From Basidiobolus meristosporus CBS 931.73 (taxonomy: Eukaryota > Basidiobolomycota > Basidiobolomycetes > Basidiobolales > Basidiobolaceae), in the NCBI GenBank assembly GCA_002104905.1, contig MCFE01000109.1, positions 1 through 64,000 of the forward strand: a stretch of 64,000 bases of DNA, read 5' to 3'. The position numbers were made by a program, and so were the translations under genes. Numbering within the stretch: the first letter of the stretch is position 1; the number at the start of each line of letters is the position of its first letter. Below the pieces are notes generated by a model that had not been told where the DNA came from, ran no database searches, and saw nothing but the letters and a program-made list of their open reading frames with translations. This document shows positions 3,937 through 47,127 of the stretch, piece after piece.

Positions 3937-4162
3937 TGTTATGAAAGTCTGAATCCCGACCAGAACAGGCAGCAAGTTGTCGCATATAGAGATGCGTCAA
4001 CACCAAAAATCATCAAAGATGATCAAAGACTGATGGGCTAAAGTAAGACAAGTTGTATGCAAATGATCGAGAAATGTATAAAAAGTAGATCCTACGCTAA
4101 AATAAAGGACAGACCTTGTTACACCAAACAGAAGGACGGGAACTGGCCTGGATTTCATAACA
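3937..4162 (+). repeat. 5' LTR of the gypsy element
   Basis: 226 bp with 10-bp inverted termini. A TATA-like TGTATAAAAAG lies in the second half and is a likely promoter. The sequence is repeated at 8360. Confidence 0.95.
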
Positions 4163-4164
4163 TT

Positions 4165-4175
4165 TGGTAGCAGCG
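4165..4175 (+). other. Primer-binding site (tRNA 3'-end type)
   Basis: TGGTAGCAGCG lies two bases inside the 5' LTR. The TGGTAGC.. start is typical of primer sites complementary to an initiator-Met tRNA 3' end including CCA. The actual tRNA is not in the window. Confidence 0.75.
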
Positions 4176-4207
4176 AAACAACAAATAATCCTCCAAACTA
4201 CAAGAAA

Positions 4208-6748
4208 ATGAGTACTAGCAAGAGTACTAAAGGAAGCAGCCCTGGTGAAGACATCAATGCATTGCTGCGAGAGCAATTACAAGAATTGAAAGAAGAGAAC
4301 CAGTGGCTAAAAGCACAGTATAGTGCACAGGAAGAGTTGCCTACTAAAGAAGATATTCTGAAGGCATATGGAAGTTTGGAATCCGGTCATGCAAAGTTAG
4401 CAAAGCCTGATACATTTGACGGGAAGTCAAATGTGGATTCTTGGATTTTTCAGGTTGAAAAATACCTAAAATTCACAAACGTTAGTAAGATGCAAATGGT
4501 TGATTATGCATCGAGTCTGTTCAGGGGACAGGCGCTATTGTGGTGGAGGTCTCACATGAAGAGGGTCCAAGAAGGACTTGAAGTTGAAATTGAAAAGTGG
4601 AACCAGTTTAAGCAAGAATTGAAGGCAGAATTCAAGCTTGTGACAGCAACTAAACATGCTCGAGATAAACTGGCACAGCTAGTCCAGAAGGGAACAGTTA
4701 GCAGCTATACCAATGAATTCAAAAGTATTCTATTAGAAATTGATGGAATATCGGAAGATGAAATACTGGATCGATATGTACGTGGACTCCGAAAGTCCAC
4801 CAGGAAAGAAGTGGAGCTTCGAGATCCAAGCTCATTCAAAGAGGCCCACAGGATTGCAGAAAGATATGACCAGATTATGTTTGATAATGTACACAGCACA
4901 AAAAAAGAAGCACATGAAGCTGACAAGAAGTCTACACCAAAGAAAAAAGATAAGGAGTATTGCATCAAACATAACTTGTGCTTCAAATGCAATAAGAAAG
5001 GTCATAGATTTTTTGAGTGCCCCAACCGGAAGAAAAGTAAAGCTACTGAACAGGATAATGAGGACACTGAAGAAACCTTGAACGAAATACAGGACCAACA
5101 TATTATACATATGGTGGATCAATTTAACAAGCAAAAAGAGGAGCAGACACGACCAATTGTTCAATGGGTAGCCCAAGTAAACAACTGCCCCGTGAAGATT
5201 ATCCTAGACAGTGGTGCAAGTGATAACTTTATATCCAAAAAGTTGGCAGTGCAGCTGAAGCTTATAGTGCAACCAACTAGAAAAAAGTATATAAAGTTGG
5301 CGGCACAAAGCCCCATACAAATTGGGAGTGAAACAAACTTTCAATGGAGCATTCCAACATACAGCGATGAAGTGGTTGCAAAGATAATTACCAATGCAAA
5401 CTTTGATGTAATTTTAGGACAACCATGGCTGTACAAACGAAATCCTGTCATCAATTGGCAAACGCAAGAAGTGGCAGTATATGAGGAAGGGAGGCGGCAG
5501 GTAATCTGTAAACCAAACACAGAACTGCTAAAAGAAGAGGAGGTACTCGTAATTACAAAGTCACAACTTTCTAAAGCAGCAAGGAAAGTAGACAAAAGCA
5601 ATGTTGGAATTATATACAGCATTCTAGATGAAGACACCAAGCAAACCAACAACACGCAGGATATCCAAAATATCTTAGATGAGTACCAAGATGTGTTCAA
5701 AGTACTCAAAGGCTTACCACCAAAAAGAAGCGTGGATCACAAGATTGATCTAGAAAACAGCTCACCGGTGTCAAAACAGCCTTACCGAATGAGTCCATTG
5801 GAGCTACAAGAATTAAAAAAACAATTAGCTGAATTGTTAGAGAAAGGTTATATAAGACCAAGTAAATCACCGTTTGGAGCACCGGTATTGTTTGTTAAGA
5901 AGAAGGATGGGTCACTTCGTTTGTGTGTGGACTATCGAGCCCTAAATTCAGCGACAATCAAAAACAAGTACCCACTCCCCCGAATTGACGAACTGTTTGA
6001 CAACCTGAATGGTGCAAGGATGTTTTCAAAGATAGATCTAAAAAGCGGCTACTACCAAATCCGAATTCAAGAAGGTGATATTGAGAAAACAGCATTCCGC
6101 ACACGCTACGGTCATTACGAGTTTGTGGTAATGAGTTTTGGACTCACCAACGCACCGGCCACCTTTATGACATTGATGAATAGCATTTTTCATCAATATC
6201 TAGATCAATTTATATTAGTATACCTAGATGATATATTAATATATAGCAAAACACTAGCAGAACATCAAGACCATCTGCGAATTGTCTTTGATATTTTGCG
6301 AAGAGAAAAATTAGTAGCAAACAAGGAAAAATGTCAGTTCAATACAAAAGAAATTGAATATTTAGGACATGTGATTACCACAGAAGGCCTGAAAGTTGAC
6401 AATAAGAAAGTAAAGATAATAGAAGAGTGGCCATACCCAAACTCGATAACCAAGCTACGATCGTTTCTAGGGTTAGCGTCATATTACCGAAAGTTTATAG
6501 CAGGCTTTGCACAGATAGCAGCGCCACTGACGGACTTACTAAAGCAAGAAAGGACGTGCACTTGGTCAAAAAAATGTGAAGTTGCATTCCAACAGTTGAA
6601 AGGTTGCATTAGTAAACGCCCCAGTGTTGAAAAGCCCGGATTATTCAAAAACCTTCTATTTAACAACCGATGCTTCACTATGGGCCGTAGGGGGAGTACT
6701 GTCACAATATCAGGACAAACAGGAGCATCCAATTGCGTTCGAAAGTAG
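4208..6748 (+). CDS. Gypsy Gag-protease-reverse transcriptase ORF
   Basis: 846 aa in a single frame. The N-terminus is coiled (about residues 20-50), then a retrotransposon Gag region (around 70-200), a CCHC zinc knuckle (C-x2-C-x4-H-x4-C, near residue 257), an aspartic protease with DSGAS (near 334), and reverse transcriptase with the VDYRALN region and YLDD active site (near 671). Gag and Pol are fused without a frameshift, as in several fungal and plant gypsy groups. The frame leaves the conserved pol reading at about 6620, in a run of four C; after that the translated tail is meaningless. The RNase H and integrase continue in another frame from 6624. A single extra C explains it, so the natural product was probably one continuous polyprotein. 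Confidence 0.93.
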
Positions 6749-8375
6749 AAAACTCTCAGCAGCAGAACATAATTATCCAACACACGAAAAAGAGTTATTG
6801 GCAATAATTGTCTGTTTGAAAGTGTGGCGATGCTACCTAGAAGGAAAAAAGTGTATTATCCGAACAGATCATGCAAGTCTAAGATTTGTTAATACACAAA
6901 AAACCTTATCAAGAAGAATGCTGCGTTGGATAGAATACTTGCAACAATTCAATTTTGAGATCACCTACATAAAAGGTAGCTCAAATAAAGTAGCCGATGC
7001 ACTCTCCAGGATGGAAGAGGAGACACAAGAACAGACAATAGAAAACACAATCCTCATGATAGATGCGTCGGATTGGCCAACTCTAATACCTCAATACCTA
7101 CAGGAGCAAACCTTCCCAGAAGAGATCCCTGCAGAAGTTAAAGAATTAGTAAGACAGGAAGCAGACAAGTTTTGCATAAATGAAGAAGTTTTGTACAGAA
7201 AAATACAAGACCTAGAAATCCCGTTTTGCCCACATATATTGCGCGCAGATCTAATCTGCAAATATCATCAAGCATATGGCCATTTAGGAGTGCAAGGAGT
7301 CTTAAACTTACTGAAGCCTCGAGCCTGGTGGCCAAATATGACTCAAGATATTGCAAAAGTTATTCGGTTCTGCCCCGACTGTCAGTTAGCCACGCCGGGA
7401 AGAAAACAAGAGGCACAACTTCACCCATTACCACAAGTCCCAGCATTTAGTCGGTGGAGTTTAGACTTCATCGGAAGGTTGCCAGAAACAAAAAAGGGTA
7501 ACAAATGGATACTAACTGCTATAGACCACACCACAAAGTGGCCAATTGCTAAAGCAATAAGAAGAGCTACAGCAAAAGAGGTAGCTACGTTCTTATATGA
7601 AGAAATACTGTTACAGTTTGGTTGCCCAGAAGAAATACTTACCGACAGAGGGCGAAACTTTATTGAAGGCGTAATGGGAAGCTATGTTAGGATGCAAGGA
7701 ATTAAACACTTAAAAACATCGGCATTTCACCCTAGAACTAATGGGGTGAATGAACGTTTTAATGGGTTGTTTTGTAGAATGCTAACAACCTACGTCCAAG
7801 GTGCACGCCACAAATGGGATGAATTCGTGCAACAGGCACTTTTTGCGTGTCGAATACGATGCCATGTAGCTACAGGGTATTCACCCTTCTACTTAGTATA
7901 TGGACGAGAGCCAAAAATCCCAGGTGACACAGTACGGCCAAACCTCTGGAATCTCGACAATGAAGACGATAAAGCAGAATGGAGAATACGAGAATTGGAG
8001 GCGTTAGGCCACAAACGAGAGGAAGTGATAAAAAGACTTGAAAGTCAAGGTCAACAAATGAAATTGCGATACGATAAAAATGTAGGTGACCAAGAGCTGG
8101 AAGTTGGAACAAAGGTTCTAATACGAAAGGAGGACCACAAGAAGTTTCAACCGTACTGGATGGGCCCATTCGTTGTAAGTAGAATAATGCCATTCTCAAC
8201 ATATCAGCTCGTAGATATGAGTGGCCAAGTTCAGAAAACGTTAGTCCACCGAGACAGACTAAAAATAGCATTGCAAGGCGGACCATTCCCCGAAAAGAAG
8301 GTTTGGTACCATAAAGACGAGGATTCTTCAGGAGAAGAATCAATCGAAGAAGGGGAAAATGTTATGAAAGTCTGA
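6624..8375 (+). CDS. Gypsy RNase H-integrase half of Pol (out of frame with the RT ORF)
   Basis: 583 aa. It has no start of its own; reading begins where RT breaks off. RNase H shows TTDAS and RTDHASL. The integrase zinc domain reads H-x3-H then CPDC. The catalytic core has the D, D, E triad in [15 protein letters not shown] and [10 protein letters not shown]. The C-terminus has a GPFVV / GPY-F-like module and lacks a chromodomain. The stop codon at 8373-8375 lies inside the 3' LTR, so the last residues are LTR-encoded. Overlap with the upstream ORF (6624-6748) is only an effect of the frameshift. Confidence 0.92.
8346..8359 (+). other. Polypurine tract of the gypsy element
   Basis: An all-purine stretch immediately before the 3' LTR, also translated as part of Pol. 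It primes plus-strand cDNA synthesis. Confidence 0.85.
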
Positions 8376-15837: not shown

Positions 15838-16940
15838 TACAAGGCATACAGCTCTGTTTAAAATCATGCGATTCAACCCGAATGATTTAGGAGACACTGA
15901 AGCCAACCGAGAATATACCTGATTGCCTTCGAAATGATTGCAAATTCGTCAATACCGATGATATTCCCTTGAACCGGCCAAGCCAACTACTACTCCTATT
16001 CCGTAGCAAAGCCTTCTTCTTGGCGTCGTATGCATCGGCAGCTGGCACCAACACTTGGATACTCAGCCCATCTCACAGGTGACTATAAAGCTCAGGATTC
16101 CATCGAATGTGGACAGCAACATTCCAGCGCTGTATTACCCAGCTACACCCCATCGCAATGAAACTCACTCTCCTGTCTGCTGTGTTTGCCACCACTCTCA
16201 TGGCTGCCAATGCTGCACCCGTAGATAGCTCGCTCGGTCAGTTGTCGGCTCCGTGCAGGCAGTTTTTGCTCTCAGTTGTGACTGATGGCGAGCCGTGCCT
16301 ACCGCTCAGTCAGGTCTGGTCAGAGGCCACATCCGTAGATTGGACAAACTATGACACAAGCAACATCGATCAGCTTTCCCCACTCCTCAGCACCATGTGC
16401 ACTGCCCCACGATGCGACAAGTCAGTGACCGATGGGCTTGCCAGCAAGATTCAAACCGAATGCTCCCAAGACCTATCTCAAAAGACAATCACCGCCATCG
16501 ATTATGTACTCGAGAACTATGAGCCACTCATCGCCATTGGATGCACGCAAAACTCTCAGCAAGAATACTGCCTCCTGGTTGAAGGCGAGGAACTGCAGGA
16601 TAACAAGGATGCGGACCTGGCTGATGTGCCGGATGACAAGCTATGCACGGAATGTATTCAGAACTGGGTCAAGGTGTACGATGAATACGCAGCAAGCTAC
16701 ACTGACCTATTCTCCAACATGACCGATGTCCAGCTGGTCAAGCAGCGATGTGGCTACTAATCACACTTGGCACAACTGATGTCAAGCCATGACCACATTA
16801 TCATCATCATGCCAATCAGTATCTATACTCAACAACTGCCTCACACTACTGCCAGCACACCATTCTTCCATTAAACCTTACCAATTGAATGACCTACACT
16901 TGTTGCACTTTGGAACACTTGGAATATATTCCTTTATCAT
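15838..16940 (+). repeat. Segmental duplication, copy 1 (about 1.1 kb)
   Basis: Direct repeat of 19806-20912 including promoter, coding region and 3' UTR. Similarity fades at both ends. Differences inside the core are a few substitutions and 1-2 base indels. Confidence 0.9.
16158..16760 (+). CDS. Small secreted Cys-rich protein, copy 1
   Basis: 200 aa. Signal peptide MKLTLLSAVFATTLMAANA, then APVDSS. The mature region has ten Cys (an even number, likely disulfide-bonded), including PCRQFLL, a CTAPRC pair, and a C-terminal LCTECIQNW CxxC. Start at 16158: a TATA box at 16083-16088 places transcription start near the upstream in-frame ATG (16107), and the downstream ATG gives the signal peptide. 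The pattern of spaced Cys with a CxxC-x3-W near the end is seen in families of fungal secreted proteins of unknown function; I cannot assign one. Possibly effector-like or wall-associated. Duplicated 4 kb downstream. Confidence 0.85.
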   Translation: MKLTLLSAVFATTLMAANAAPVDSSLGQLSAPCRQFLLSVVTDGEPCLPLSQVWSEATSVDWTNYDTSNIDQLSPLLSTMCTAPRCDKSVTDGLASKIQTECSQDLSQKTITAIDYVLENYEPLIAIGCTQNSQQEYCLLVEGEELQDNKDADLADVPDDKLCTECIQNWVKVYDEYAASYTDLFSNMTDVQLVKQRCGY

Positions 16941-19805: not shown

Positions 19806-20912
19806 GCCTTACAAAATATTTGCCTCCATTTAAATCATGTAATTTAACCCGGATGATTTAGGAGATACTGAAGCCAACCGAGAATATACCTGATTGCCTT
19901 CGAAATGATTGCAAATTCGTACGATACCGATGATATTCCCTTGAACCGGCCAAGCCAACTACTACTCCTATTCCGTAGCAAAGCCTTCTTCTTGGCGTCG
20001 TATGCATCGGCAGCTGGCACCAACACTTGGATACTCAGCCCATCTCACGGTGACTATAAAGCTCAGGATTCCATCGAATGTGGACAGCAACATTCCAGCG
20101 CTGTATTACCCAGCTACACCCCATCGCAATGAAACTCACTCTCCTGTCTGCTGTGTTTGCCACCACTCTCATGGCTGCCAATGCTGCACCCGTAGATAGC
20201 TCGCTCGGTCAGTTGTCGGCTCCGTGCAGGCAGTTTTTGCTCTCAGTTGTGACTGATGGCGAGCCGTGCCTACCGCTCAGTCAGGTCTGGTCAGAGGCCA
20301 CATCCGTAGATTGGACAAACTATGACACAAGCAACATCGATCAGCTTTCCCCACTCCTCAGCACCATGTGCACTGCCCCACGATGCGACAAGTCAGTGAC
20401 CGATGGGCTTGCCAGCAAGATTCAAACCGAATGCTCCCAAGACCTATCTCAAAAGACAATCACCGCCATCGATTATGTACTCGAGAACTATGAGCCACTC
20501 ATCGCCATTGGATGCACGCAAAACTCTCAGCAAGAATACTGCCTCCTGGTTGAAGGCGAGGAACTGCAGGATAACAAGGATGCGGACCTGGCTGATGTGC
20601 CGGATGACAAGCTATGCACGGAATGTGTTCAGAACTGGGTCAAGGTGTACGATGAATACTCAGCAAGCTACACTGACCTATTCTCCAACATGACCGATGT
20701 CCAGCTGGTCAAGCAGCGATGTGGCTACTAATCACACTTGGCACAACTGATGTCAAGCCATGACCACATTATCATCATCATGCCAATCAGTATCTATACT
20801 CAACAACTGCCTCACACTACTGCCAGCACACCATTCTTCCATTAAACCTTACCAATTGAATGACCTACATTTGTTGCACTTTGGAGCACTTGAAATATAT
20901 ACCTTTATTGAT
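19806..20912 (+). repeat. Segmental duplication, copy 2
   Basis: Direct repeat of 15838-16940. Left-edge similarity starts weakly at CCTTACAA and becomes near-perfect from about 19846. Confidence 0.9.
20129..20731 (+). CDS. Small secreted Cys-rich protein, copy 2
   Basis: 200 aa, differing from copy 1 at two residues only (I to V in CTEC.QNW, and A to S in YDEY.ASY). Same signal peptide, ten Cys, and the same TATA-bearing upstream region, so it is likely expressed the same way. Both copies are intact, consistent with a recent duplication or with gene conversion. Confidence 0.85.
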   Translation: MKLTLLSAVFATTLMAANAAPVDSSLGQLSAPCRQFLLSVVTDGEPCLPLSQVWSEATSVDWTNYDTSNIDQLSPLLSTMCTAPRCDKSVTDGLASKIQTECSQDLSQKTITAIDYVLENYEPLIAIGCTQNSQQEYCLLVEGEELQDNKDADLADVPDDKLCTECVQNWVKVYDEYSASYTDLFSNMTDVQLVKQRCGY

Positions 20913-29980: not shown

Positions 29981-30056
29981 GTATCCTTTGTGTTGGTTAC
30001 ATCCATCAATTCGCCTCATCCATTTGTTCAGTTGTTCCTTAACATTGTTTGTATAG
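29981..30056 (+). other. U12-type (minor spliceosome) GT-AG intron in the RPL13 5' leader
   Basis: 76 bp. The donor GTATCCTTTG matches the U12-type 5' splice consensus RTATCCTTT in full. TTCCTTAAC at 30035-30043 is the U12 branch-site consensus. The 3' end GTATAG lies about 14 nt beyond the branch A and 3 nt before the ATG. No U2-type donor (GTAAGT-like) is present here. It is non-coding, so there is no frame check; support comes from both motifs and their spacing. Confidence 0.85.
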
Positions 30057-30059
30057 AAG

Positions 30060-30758
30060 ATGAAGCACAACAATCAGTTGCCCAACAATCACTTCCGCAA
30101 GGATTGGCAATTACGTGTCAAGACTTGGTTTGATCAAGCTGGTCGTAAGAAGCGCAGAAGACTCAATCGCGTCCAAAAGGCTGCTCGTATTGCTCCTCGC
30201 CCCGTTGACGGCCTTCTTAGACCTGCCGTCAGATGCCCCACTGTCAAGTACAACACCAAGTTGAGAGCTGGCAAAGGTTTCACCTTGGAGGAGCTTAAGG
30301 TAGTACCAGATCGCTCAGCATTCGCCGCCAACCGGTATTAACGATTTTGGAAACTCGGCTAATAGGAAGCCGGTATCAGACGCAAGGAGGCTCTTACCAT
30401 CGGTATTTCCGTCGACCACCGTCGTCGTAACAAGTCCGAAGAGTCCTTGAGCTTGAACGTCCAACGCCTCAAGGCCTACAAGGCTAAGCTCATCGTCTTC
30501 CCCAAGAAGGCCGGTAAGCCCAAGAAGGGTGACAGCGAGGCCGCTGAGCTTGCTGAAGCCAAGCAACTCGCCGGTGCTGTTATGCCCGTTACCCAAGTCT
30601 ACTCCAAGGAGAAGGCCCGCAAGGTCACCGAGGAGGAGAAGACTGCCAGCGCTTACGCTACCCTCCGTAACGTTCGTTCCGAACAACGTTACCGTGGTAT
30701 CCGTGAGAAGCGTGCCAGACTCAAGGCCGAAGAGGAGGCTCAAAAGGTCAAGAAATAA
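30060..30758 (+). CDS. RPL13: 60S ribosomal protein L13 (eL13)
   Basis: Exons 30060-30299 and 30366-30758 (633 nt, 210 aa), with a 66-nt intron (GTAGTA...TAATAG). [26 protein letters not shown] and [21 protein letters not shown] are hallmark eL13 sequences; the basic C-terminus is [22 protein letters not shown]. Structural protein of the large subunit. A further, U12-type, intron sits in the leader, making its expression dependent on the minor spliceosome if real. Confidence 0.97.
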
Positions 30759-44973: not shown

Positions 44974-47127
44974 ATGATGAGGCAGATAAGAAACTTCTTC
45001 AAGTCCACCGTCGCTGGTATTTCCTTGACCGCACTTGCATGCCATACCTCCGGAGAGGAAATTCATGTTTTGTATAGGACACGAGCCAATGAATTCACAC
45101 TTCTCCTCAAAAAGGGATCGTGCTGCCCAGAGAACCACGGAGAGGGAATTCCCGGACACATATAATGGCAAGGTCGCTGTTTCTTCCGAGTCCGGCGATA
45201 CCGAATTCGCTGTTGAACCCAACATTTCAATGTACCCTGAATTGGAGAGATACCAACTACTGGAAAAGCTGGGAGAGTAAGTGGGTTTTGCAAGGTTACC
45301 TATTCCCCCGTCGCCTCGCTATGAAACTAACTCCCCCAAAGTGGGGCTTTCAGCGATGTTTACAAAGCATTTGACAGGGTGTGTCAAAGGTTCGCGGCCG
45401 TAAAGGTGGTGCGAAAATTCCAACTCAACGCGGTCCAGGTAAGCGCAGCCTTTTACCACATGGCGTCCTGGACACTTATCGATCGGTTGGTGGGCTTAGA
45501 GAGGAAATATCCTGAAGGAGGTGACGATCATGCGCAACATCAACCACTGCAATGTAGCCAGGCTTTTGGACTTCAAAGAGACCAAGGATTTCTACTTTCT
45601 CGTCCTCGAGCTCCTGGAGGGGGGAGAGCTCTTCCACAGAATCGTCAAGCTCACGTATTTCTCTGAGGACCTTGCCCGACATGTAATCACTCAAGTGGCC
45701 AGAGGAATCCAGTATCTGCACGATGAGAAGGGGGTCATCCACAGGTAGACCAAGTCCGCGGCAATGGCCTATCTTACAGATGCTCATCATCCAAACCCTG
45801 ATATAGAGACATCAAACCAGAAAATCTACTATTTCAAGCGATACCCTATAGGTATAGAGATACCATGTCCGATGAACCCATCGAGTTGGATGAGGAGAAG
45901 CTGGACGAAGGCGATTTCGTTGACGGAATCGGAGGTGGTGGTATCGGCGTGGTGAAGATTGCCGACTTCGGGCTATCCAAGGTGGTATGGAATAGCGACA
46001 CAATGACTCCCTGCGGAACTGATATCCTTTTACATCTTTCCCGAGATACCTTTACCCCACCACTCGATCATGTCGATCCTTAACCTGGCAACACTAGGCT
46101 ATACAGCTCCTGAGGTAGTCCGAGACGAACGCTACAGCAAATCTGTGGACATGTGGGCATTAGGATGCGTGCTCTACACACTGTAAGTAGATCAAGGACC
46201 GGCCAGGCGTTTCGTTCGACTGACCGAGTTTATTAGATTGTGTGGATTTCCTCCTTTCTACGACGAGGAGATTCACGCGCTCACCGAGAAAGTGGCCATC
46301 GGTCATTTTTCCTTCCTGTCCCCGTGGTGGGATGATATCTCCGAGAGCGGTCAGTATTTCTCTATCGCCCCCAGAGAGCCTTCCCTTTCTAAACGGCCTC
46401 CTTTTTCACGGGTCTAGCCAAGGATTTGGTTTCCCAACTGTTGACCGTGGACCCTTCGGTTCGTTACACGATCGCCGACTTCTTCAGCCATCCATGGATT
46501 AAGGGAGAGGTAGGGTGTCATGTTAACCCCTCCCCCCTGTATGTGAAACATCTCTTGCTCATACTGCTTCTAATTCATCAGAAGACCGAGGATTCTGGCG
46601 TCGGTGGTGCCCATGACACAGTGCCGCCTGATTCGGATGAAGAACGTTCCATCGATGCAAATCACCAAACCAATATCCCGCGGAAAACTCGCCACCTTAT
46701 GCCTCTACCCGTCACCCCCAGTATCTCCATCAAGGAGGCTATCGACGTGTCCTATGCGGTTCATCGAATGGAGGATGAGGAGGCAGCAAAATACCGATTC
46801 CGGAATGCGGTGCAGGGACATCATGCGACTGGGATCATTTCCAACCCAGCCCACCATAGAGGATTCTTGGAGGTGCTGCAGAACAGTCCCAACAGCGAGG
46901 ACATAAATACCATCAATGCTGCCTTCCAAAATGCTGGGTTACCGGGCCGATACAAGCCACAGCGAAGGAGTCAATTGACCCCCGGGGCCTCCACAAGCTT
47001 GGCACCCGAAACAGCCGCTACCAAGCGCGACTTCGCAACTAGTAGGGCAGAGTCAGGTAGTGGATTTGAGTTGAGCTTGGACCAAGCAACATTGCTGAGC
47101 AGGAGGAAAGCGAAGCTGGATTGCTAA
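44974..47127 (+). CDS. srk1: CaMK-family Ser/Thr kinase, Rck2/Srk1-like, nine exons with one AT-AC intron
   Basis: Exons 44974-45016, 45078-45276, 45342-45438, 45500-45744, 45807-46021, 46095-46182, 46237-46349, 46418-46509 and 46582-47127; 1638 nt, 545 aa. Kinase domain about residues 70-410: KLGDGAFSDVY (Gly loop), FAAVKVVRK (VAVK Lys), [34 protein letters not shown] (DFG), MTPCGTVGYTAPE (activation loop Thr), [23 protein letters not shown]. The insert after HRDIKPEN (acidic, Gly-rich, about 35 aa) is typical of this group. The C-terminal tail is regulatory and low in complexity. Yeast and fission yeast members are substrates of the Hog1/Sty1 stress MAPK, modulating translation and cell cycle; that role is from the family. 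Frame across intron 5 works only with AT-AC ends. Confidence 0.93.
46022..46094 (+). other. U12-type AT-AC intron in the kinase gene
   Basis: 73 bp. It starts ATATCCTTTT (exact U12 AT-AC donor), has TCCTTAACC as branch site (46077-46085), and ends CAACAC; the branch A lies about 11 nt from the 3' end. Splicing here restores CGT-VGYTAPE, the kinase activation loop, exactly. The only nearby AG gives the wrong frame, and no GT donor fits. Confidence 0.93.

Follow-up and report, generated by a model that had tools for sequence, protein, structure and literature searches.

Introns of the AT-AC U12 type begin with the 5' splice site consensus ATATCCTT and carry a branch site, consensus TCCTTRAC, about 10-14 nt from the 3' end. 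Basidiobolus is a frog-gut fungus, and Srk1/Rck2 kinases are targets of p38-type MAPKs in yeasts. According to the available text of a survey of annotated introns (PMC10639083), B. meristosporus, placed there in Zoopagomycota and by NCBI in the phylum Basidiobolomycota, has 249 minor introns. The same text gives 205 for Rhizophagus irregularis, about 4 for Rhizopus and about 20 for Phycomyces (cf. PMC2846911), and all four minor snRNAs have been reported for Rhizophagus. The preliminary description of the DNA studied here held that minor introns have disappeared from most studied fungi and persist in a few early lineages, which agrees with what the two papers state about their loss in Ascomycota and Basidiomycota and their retention in some early lineages. 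RNA-seq reads of strain CBS 931.73 were used in a further study (PMC7466969, as stated in its available text).

The window analyzed in the current study is the first 64,000 nt of contig MCFE01000109.1 of B. meristosporus CBS 931.73. On its plus strand, an AT-AC U12-type intron of 73 nt (46022..46094) lies in phase 1 inside a Srk1/Rck2-type kinase gene and splits the activation loop between CGT and VGYTAPE. Judged from its sequence, it is almost certainly a functional minor-class (U12-dependent) intron of this stress kinase, which would be spliced out in the cell, and by the minor spliceosome. U12-type AT-AC introns known from animals, plants and early-branching fungal lineages have the same donor, branch, spacing and ends, together with the same four snRNAs; the minor introns of Rhizophagus, Rhizopus and Phycomyces are likewise fungal, but belong to different species. 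The kinase shares its domain with other Srk1/Rck2-type MAPK-activated kinases, and here the activation loop contains an AT-AC intron.

The whole intron reads ATATCCTTTT...TCCTTAACCTGGCAACAC. Its 5' splice site, ATATCCTTTT (46022..46031, plus strand), is an exact fit to the consensus and includes CCTTTT, complementary to the 5' end of U11 (AAAAAGG); the U11 of this genome starts AAAAAGGG, which is complementary to the donor. The branch site TCCTTAAC (46077..46084, plus strand) is complementary to GUAAGGA in the U12 of this genome. Both this motif and its distance to the 3' end, with the final base of the intron 11 nt after the branch A, fit the U12 type, and of the two As in the motif the one at 46083 is probably the branch A. 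The 3' splice site is AC at 46093..46094 (plus strand). The donor, branch, terminal AC and branch spacing named in the preliminary description were all borne out by coordinates and exact motif fits. In the proposed reaction, U11 would pair with the donor CCTTTT and U12 with TCCTTAAC, leaving the branch A bulged; the U4atac/U6atac.U5 particle would then join, and cutting at the AT-AC ends would restore the activation loop CGTVGYTAPE.

Among all excisions of 20-399 nt starting at about 45751-46300, removal of 46022-46094 alone restored the 14-residue activation-loop stretch, confirming the earlier statement that only this splicing yields CGTVGYTAPE. The alternative end, AC at 46092, leads to a stop codon. 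AT-AG use, with the AG at 46097 as the main site, was rejected, as it removes a conserved Val in frame. Retention of the intron results in a frameshift and a product that ends in a different stretch, of which 23 residues were given; a transcript that kept it would have its frame broken inside the activation loop and give a product without the C-lobe.

As modelled, the kinase gene (45089..47127, plus strand) has eight exons and encodes 527 aa from a probable start codon. Its other introns, all GT-AG and on the plus strand, lie at 45277-45341, 45439-45499, 45745-45806, 46183-46236, 46350-46417 and 46510-46581, and the last acceptor is either 46581 or 46584. The product, in a query with two residues joined wrongly, matched Pfam Pkinase at 246.2 bits and has a complete domain with the activation loop of the family. 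Of 2563 homologues found, 120 were listed; these share the kinase domain, and their identity to the query was 57-88% over 82-100% of its length. The best named homologues listed were from Basidiobolus, and one was named 'MAPK-activated protein kinase Srk1'. An origin of the window in Dikarya was rejected on the grounds of taxonomy and protein identity. The loop of these 120 listed homologues reads CGTVGYTAPE in 111, CGTVGYAAPE in three, CGTIGYTAPE in two and VGTIGYTAPE in two. The remaining two are P0063, without a match to the motif, and P0002, the deposited model of the same gene, which is broken there.

The genome has four close Srk1-type copies (at least 75% identity), in two of which the activation loop is interrupted by an AT-AC intron, and four further kinase matches at 35-44% identity. 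In the copy on contig C1014, an AT-AC intron of 79 nt occupies the same site in the same phase and reads ATATCTTTTT...TCCTTAAC...GTAC. Compared with the window intron, its donor agrees at 9/10 positions, its branch at 8/8, and the spacing from branch to end is identical; in the middle parts of the introns, the alignment is no better than that of shuffled sequence (216/500 shuffles reach the score). The copies on contigs C386 and C509 encode the same activation loop without an intron there, are open across the later sites and keep the 5' introns.

This pattern in C509 (L018) and C386 (L019) is one of intron loss from the 3' side, which can fairly be attributed to reverse-transcribed copies.

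The preliminary description had also claimed that the position of the intron makes kinase activity dependent on minor splicing. For the window gene the claim should hold, as retention would break its product, but it does not extend to the whole cell. Since C386 and C509 are intronless at the site, the Srk1-type activity of the cell need not depend on minor splicing, and the dependence should hold per gene rather than cell-wide.

The same two paralogues bear on whether the intron could act as a stress switch. Human p38MAPK has a stabilising effect on U6atac in cells and increases the splicing of minor introns (PMC3728624). By analogy, Hog1/p38-type signalling might lead to more U6atac, better removal of the window intron and consequently more of the downstream kinase Srk1, in a feed-forward manner. 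Such a switch seems improbable here, as the intronless genes on C386 and C509 would bypass it. Moreover, minor splicing in Rhizophagus did not follow proliferation, which is, however, a different stimulus (PMC10639083, in the part available). Activation of the window kinase by a Hog1/p38-type MAPK is itself only suggested, by the names of its homologues. The simplest reading is that the intron is conserved and constitutive rather than a regulatory switch.

A search for U11, U12, U4atac and U6atac genes had been asked for beforehand in the preliminary description, and all four were present. The snRNA models were run over the genome (89.0 Mb, 1311 contigs) and over 14 control genomes, and each gene was matched over the full model length: U11 at 76.8 bits (E 1.4e-12; two copies, identical within the gene), U6atac at 63.2 bits (E 2.1e-13), U12 at 46.9 bits (E 1.5e-6) and U4atac at 43.4 bits (E 1.4e-4), the last two under the Rfam gathering score of 53. 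There were no matches for U12, U6atac or U4atac in the 14 control genomes, and the three for U11 were below the cut-off, at a looser limit (E up to 10). The predicted U4atac-U6atac duplex has a 13-bp run and an energy of -28.0 kcal/mol, and includes a C to U change in U6atac together with a G to A change in U4atac, relative to the consensus. Among the proteins of the minor spliceosome, U11-48K was searched for, and a homologue is present. Its zinc finger, on contig C436, scored 30 bits, above the Pfam cut-off, with a short model that one of the 14 control genomes (an archaeon) also matches, and a GTSF1-type chain scored higher than U11-48K on this finger. Two stretches of the C436 locus match the U11/U12-48K of 8r7n (E 1.7e-5 and 2.7e-6).

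The two U11 copies (L004 and L005, on contigs C215 and C738) have flanks that are nearly identical over about 1.4 kb, and represent either a recent duplication or assembly redundancy. Upstream of the U11, U12, U4atac and U6atac genes (loci L001, L002, L003 and L005, with one U11 copy inspected), two elements were found in common: CCCATA around -63 (range -60 to -65) and a TATA-like box around -30 (range -25 to -35). CCCATA was first spotted by eye, and its chance of falling in a given 16-nt slot is about 0.003 per gene. Together the two elements make up a putative snRNA promoter, which would serve both polymerase classes of B. meristosporus.

The strict AT-AC U12 pattern detected 45 rows at 43 places genome-wide, the window intron among them, with three near-identical copy pairs among the rows, vs none for the backward-read pattern. 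Bases outside the pattern, compared in 40 of the 45 rows, likewise conformed to the U12 type, with T at +9 in 32, T at +10 in 25, and a pyrimidine before AC in 36. Flanks were read for 20 of the 43 places. In an uncontrolled count that took the most favourable of three frames and of the candidate ends, all 20 could be read through the junction in an open frame of 62 residues or more. A Pfam domain above the cut-off spanned the junction in nine of the 20 (WD40, TPR, Sad1/UNC, ChAPs, E2, Alg9-like, cofilin-type, VPS9 and eIF2A). For the other 11, a domain above the cut-off lay only beside the junction in three (MyTH4 twice, IPK), two had matches below the cut-off and six had none. In 200 kb sampled from contig C1 there was one strict match (113063-113135), which is also among the genome-wide places, and the peptide predicted there had no Pfam match.

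A second, perfect U12-type intron of the window, with GT-AG ends, lies at 29981..30056 (plus strand) and reads GTATCCTTTG...TCCTTAAC(30036-30043)...TATAG. It is a 5'-leader intron in the gene for ribosomal protein eL13, whose start codon (ATG at 30060) follows 3 nt after the end of the intron.

Two other features of the window were observed. At 4106-8375 there is a long, retroelement-like pair of overlapping ORFs (gag, protease, reverse transcriptase and integrase-like), identified as such by visual inspection of the listed ORFs. Two near-identical, secreted-looking ORFs of 223 aa (16089-16760 and 20060-20731) lie about 4 kb apart, an apparent tandem duplication.

The U6atac RNA of B. meristosporus is unusual. 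A single copy was found (L002; G000, contig C779, 39963-40096, minus strand), and a second search with a 21-nt core and two mismatches allowed detected no further copy. It reads GAGUCGAGAG where the Rfam consensus has GAAAGGAGAG, and the segment that pairs with the 5' splice site is changed from the canonical AAGGA to GUCGA. In human numbering, G14 is replaced by C and A13 by U, and G15 is kept. Suppressor tests in human cells showed that intron positions C5 and C6 pair with U6atac G14 and G15 (PMC4980772, available text). When the strongest predicted duplex was taken from any part of U6atac 1-30, the window donor reached -6.3 kcal/mol, compared with -11.3 with the Rfam consensus; the values were -4.7 vs -7.2 kcal/mol for the C1014 donor and -8.0 vs -10.9 kcal/mol for the eL13 donor. 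When +6/+7 of the pattern were opened, 59 rows were obtained vs 45, with 17 for the control. The 14 added rows comprised three ATATCTTT introns and 11 background-like ones (including a repeat present in three copies and a site counted twice). Since +6/+7 are barely relaxed and U6atac G14 is C, the introns keep bases that cannot pair with U6atac in the usual register.

Pairing with U11 could explain the constraint on these donor bases. The odd U6atac may be an assembly error, or a canonical copy may be missing from the assembly. A more far-reaching and rather doubtful proposal is that the minor spliceosome works with a broken canonical U6atac-5' splice site helix, and that C6 (rarely T) and T7 are kept through U11 alone, through U11 and protein, or through a re-registered U6atac contact. 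One specific re-registration, to GAUAC (the complement of GUAUC), was rejected as post hoc and with the geometry against it. The available U6atac text of the minor-intron survey (PMC10639083) contains no description of the U6atac change in B. meristosporus.

The departure of U6atac from the consensus in its pairing segment would also fit a relic machinery, in which the motifs are kept by descent and excision of the intron is either inefficient or the work of the major spliceosome. This is very unlikely, however, given the strong constraint on the motifs genome-wide, the intact predicted U4atac-U6atac duplex and the promoter-like elements shared by the snRNA genes.

The deposited gene model offers another reading of the locus. 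NCBI protein P0002 (B. meristosporus CBS 931.73) is identical to the kinase product apart from its N-terminus, which is shorter, and three splice choices, one of which implies a GT-AG intron at 45985..46045 (plus strand) that overlaps the U12 intron and was judged an annotation error. As a result, 13 activation-loop residues are gone from P0002 and 17 others stand in their place, nearly all of them translated from the 3' part of the U12 intron. If the GT-AG intron were real, the kinase would be without a normal activation loop, or both isoforms would be made. In favour of this, P0002 carries the intron, and the frame is still open where the U12 intron ends. However, the loop deleted in this way is present in C1014, C386/C509, B. 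ranarum P0001 and 111 of the 120 homologues listed, P0002 additionally lacks a 17-residue stretch of the catalytic loop, and the C1014 paralogue retains the AT-AC motifs. The deposited model, which breaks a loop kept across homologues, was rejected, and a real intron at 45985-46045 is extremely unlikely; read against its homologues, P0002 is mis-modelled, its GT-AG pair deleting the activation loop.

Among 60 sequences generated from the window by a first-order Markov model, an exact donor with branch and matched end arose at a mean of 0.017 per strand, and the window itself gave three rows on the plus strand (two introns, one of which has alternative ends) and none on the minus strand. A chance motif was rejected in view of the unique excision, this Markov control, the conservation of the motifs in the paralogue and the 43 genome-wide places vs 0. 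The sequence, the paralogue, the four snRNAs, the U11-48K homologue and the 43 AT-AC places all support the original identification of this fungal stress-kinase intron as an AT-AC U12-type one.

The intron at 46022-46094 is new and unannotated, although its kind is already known and the species is already rich in minor introns. The 249 published introns are from the same species, whereas this one is absent from the deposited gene model; because the survey, according to its available text, classified annotated introns and P0002 is without 46022-46094, the intron is probably not among the 249. Literature combining a minor intron, an activation loop and a kinase yielded a sole match, which concerns prostate cancer.

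These results show that the deposited annotation turned an AT-AC intron into a broken protein, leaving a public kinase model without its activation loop. Counts of annotated introns and functional surveys may therefore run too low, as shown here for one gene only. The kinase also provides a clean fungal readout of minor splicing. The odd U6atac bears on how the 5' splice site is recognized by the minor spliceosome and, if minor splicing does proceed with the broken helix, B. meristosporus would offer a test, set up by nature, of the dispensability of the U6atac-5' splice site helix, which is required in human cells.
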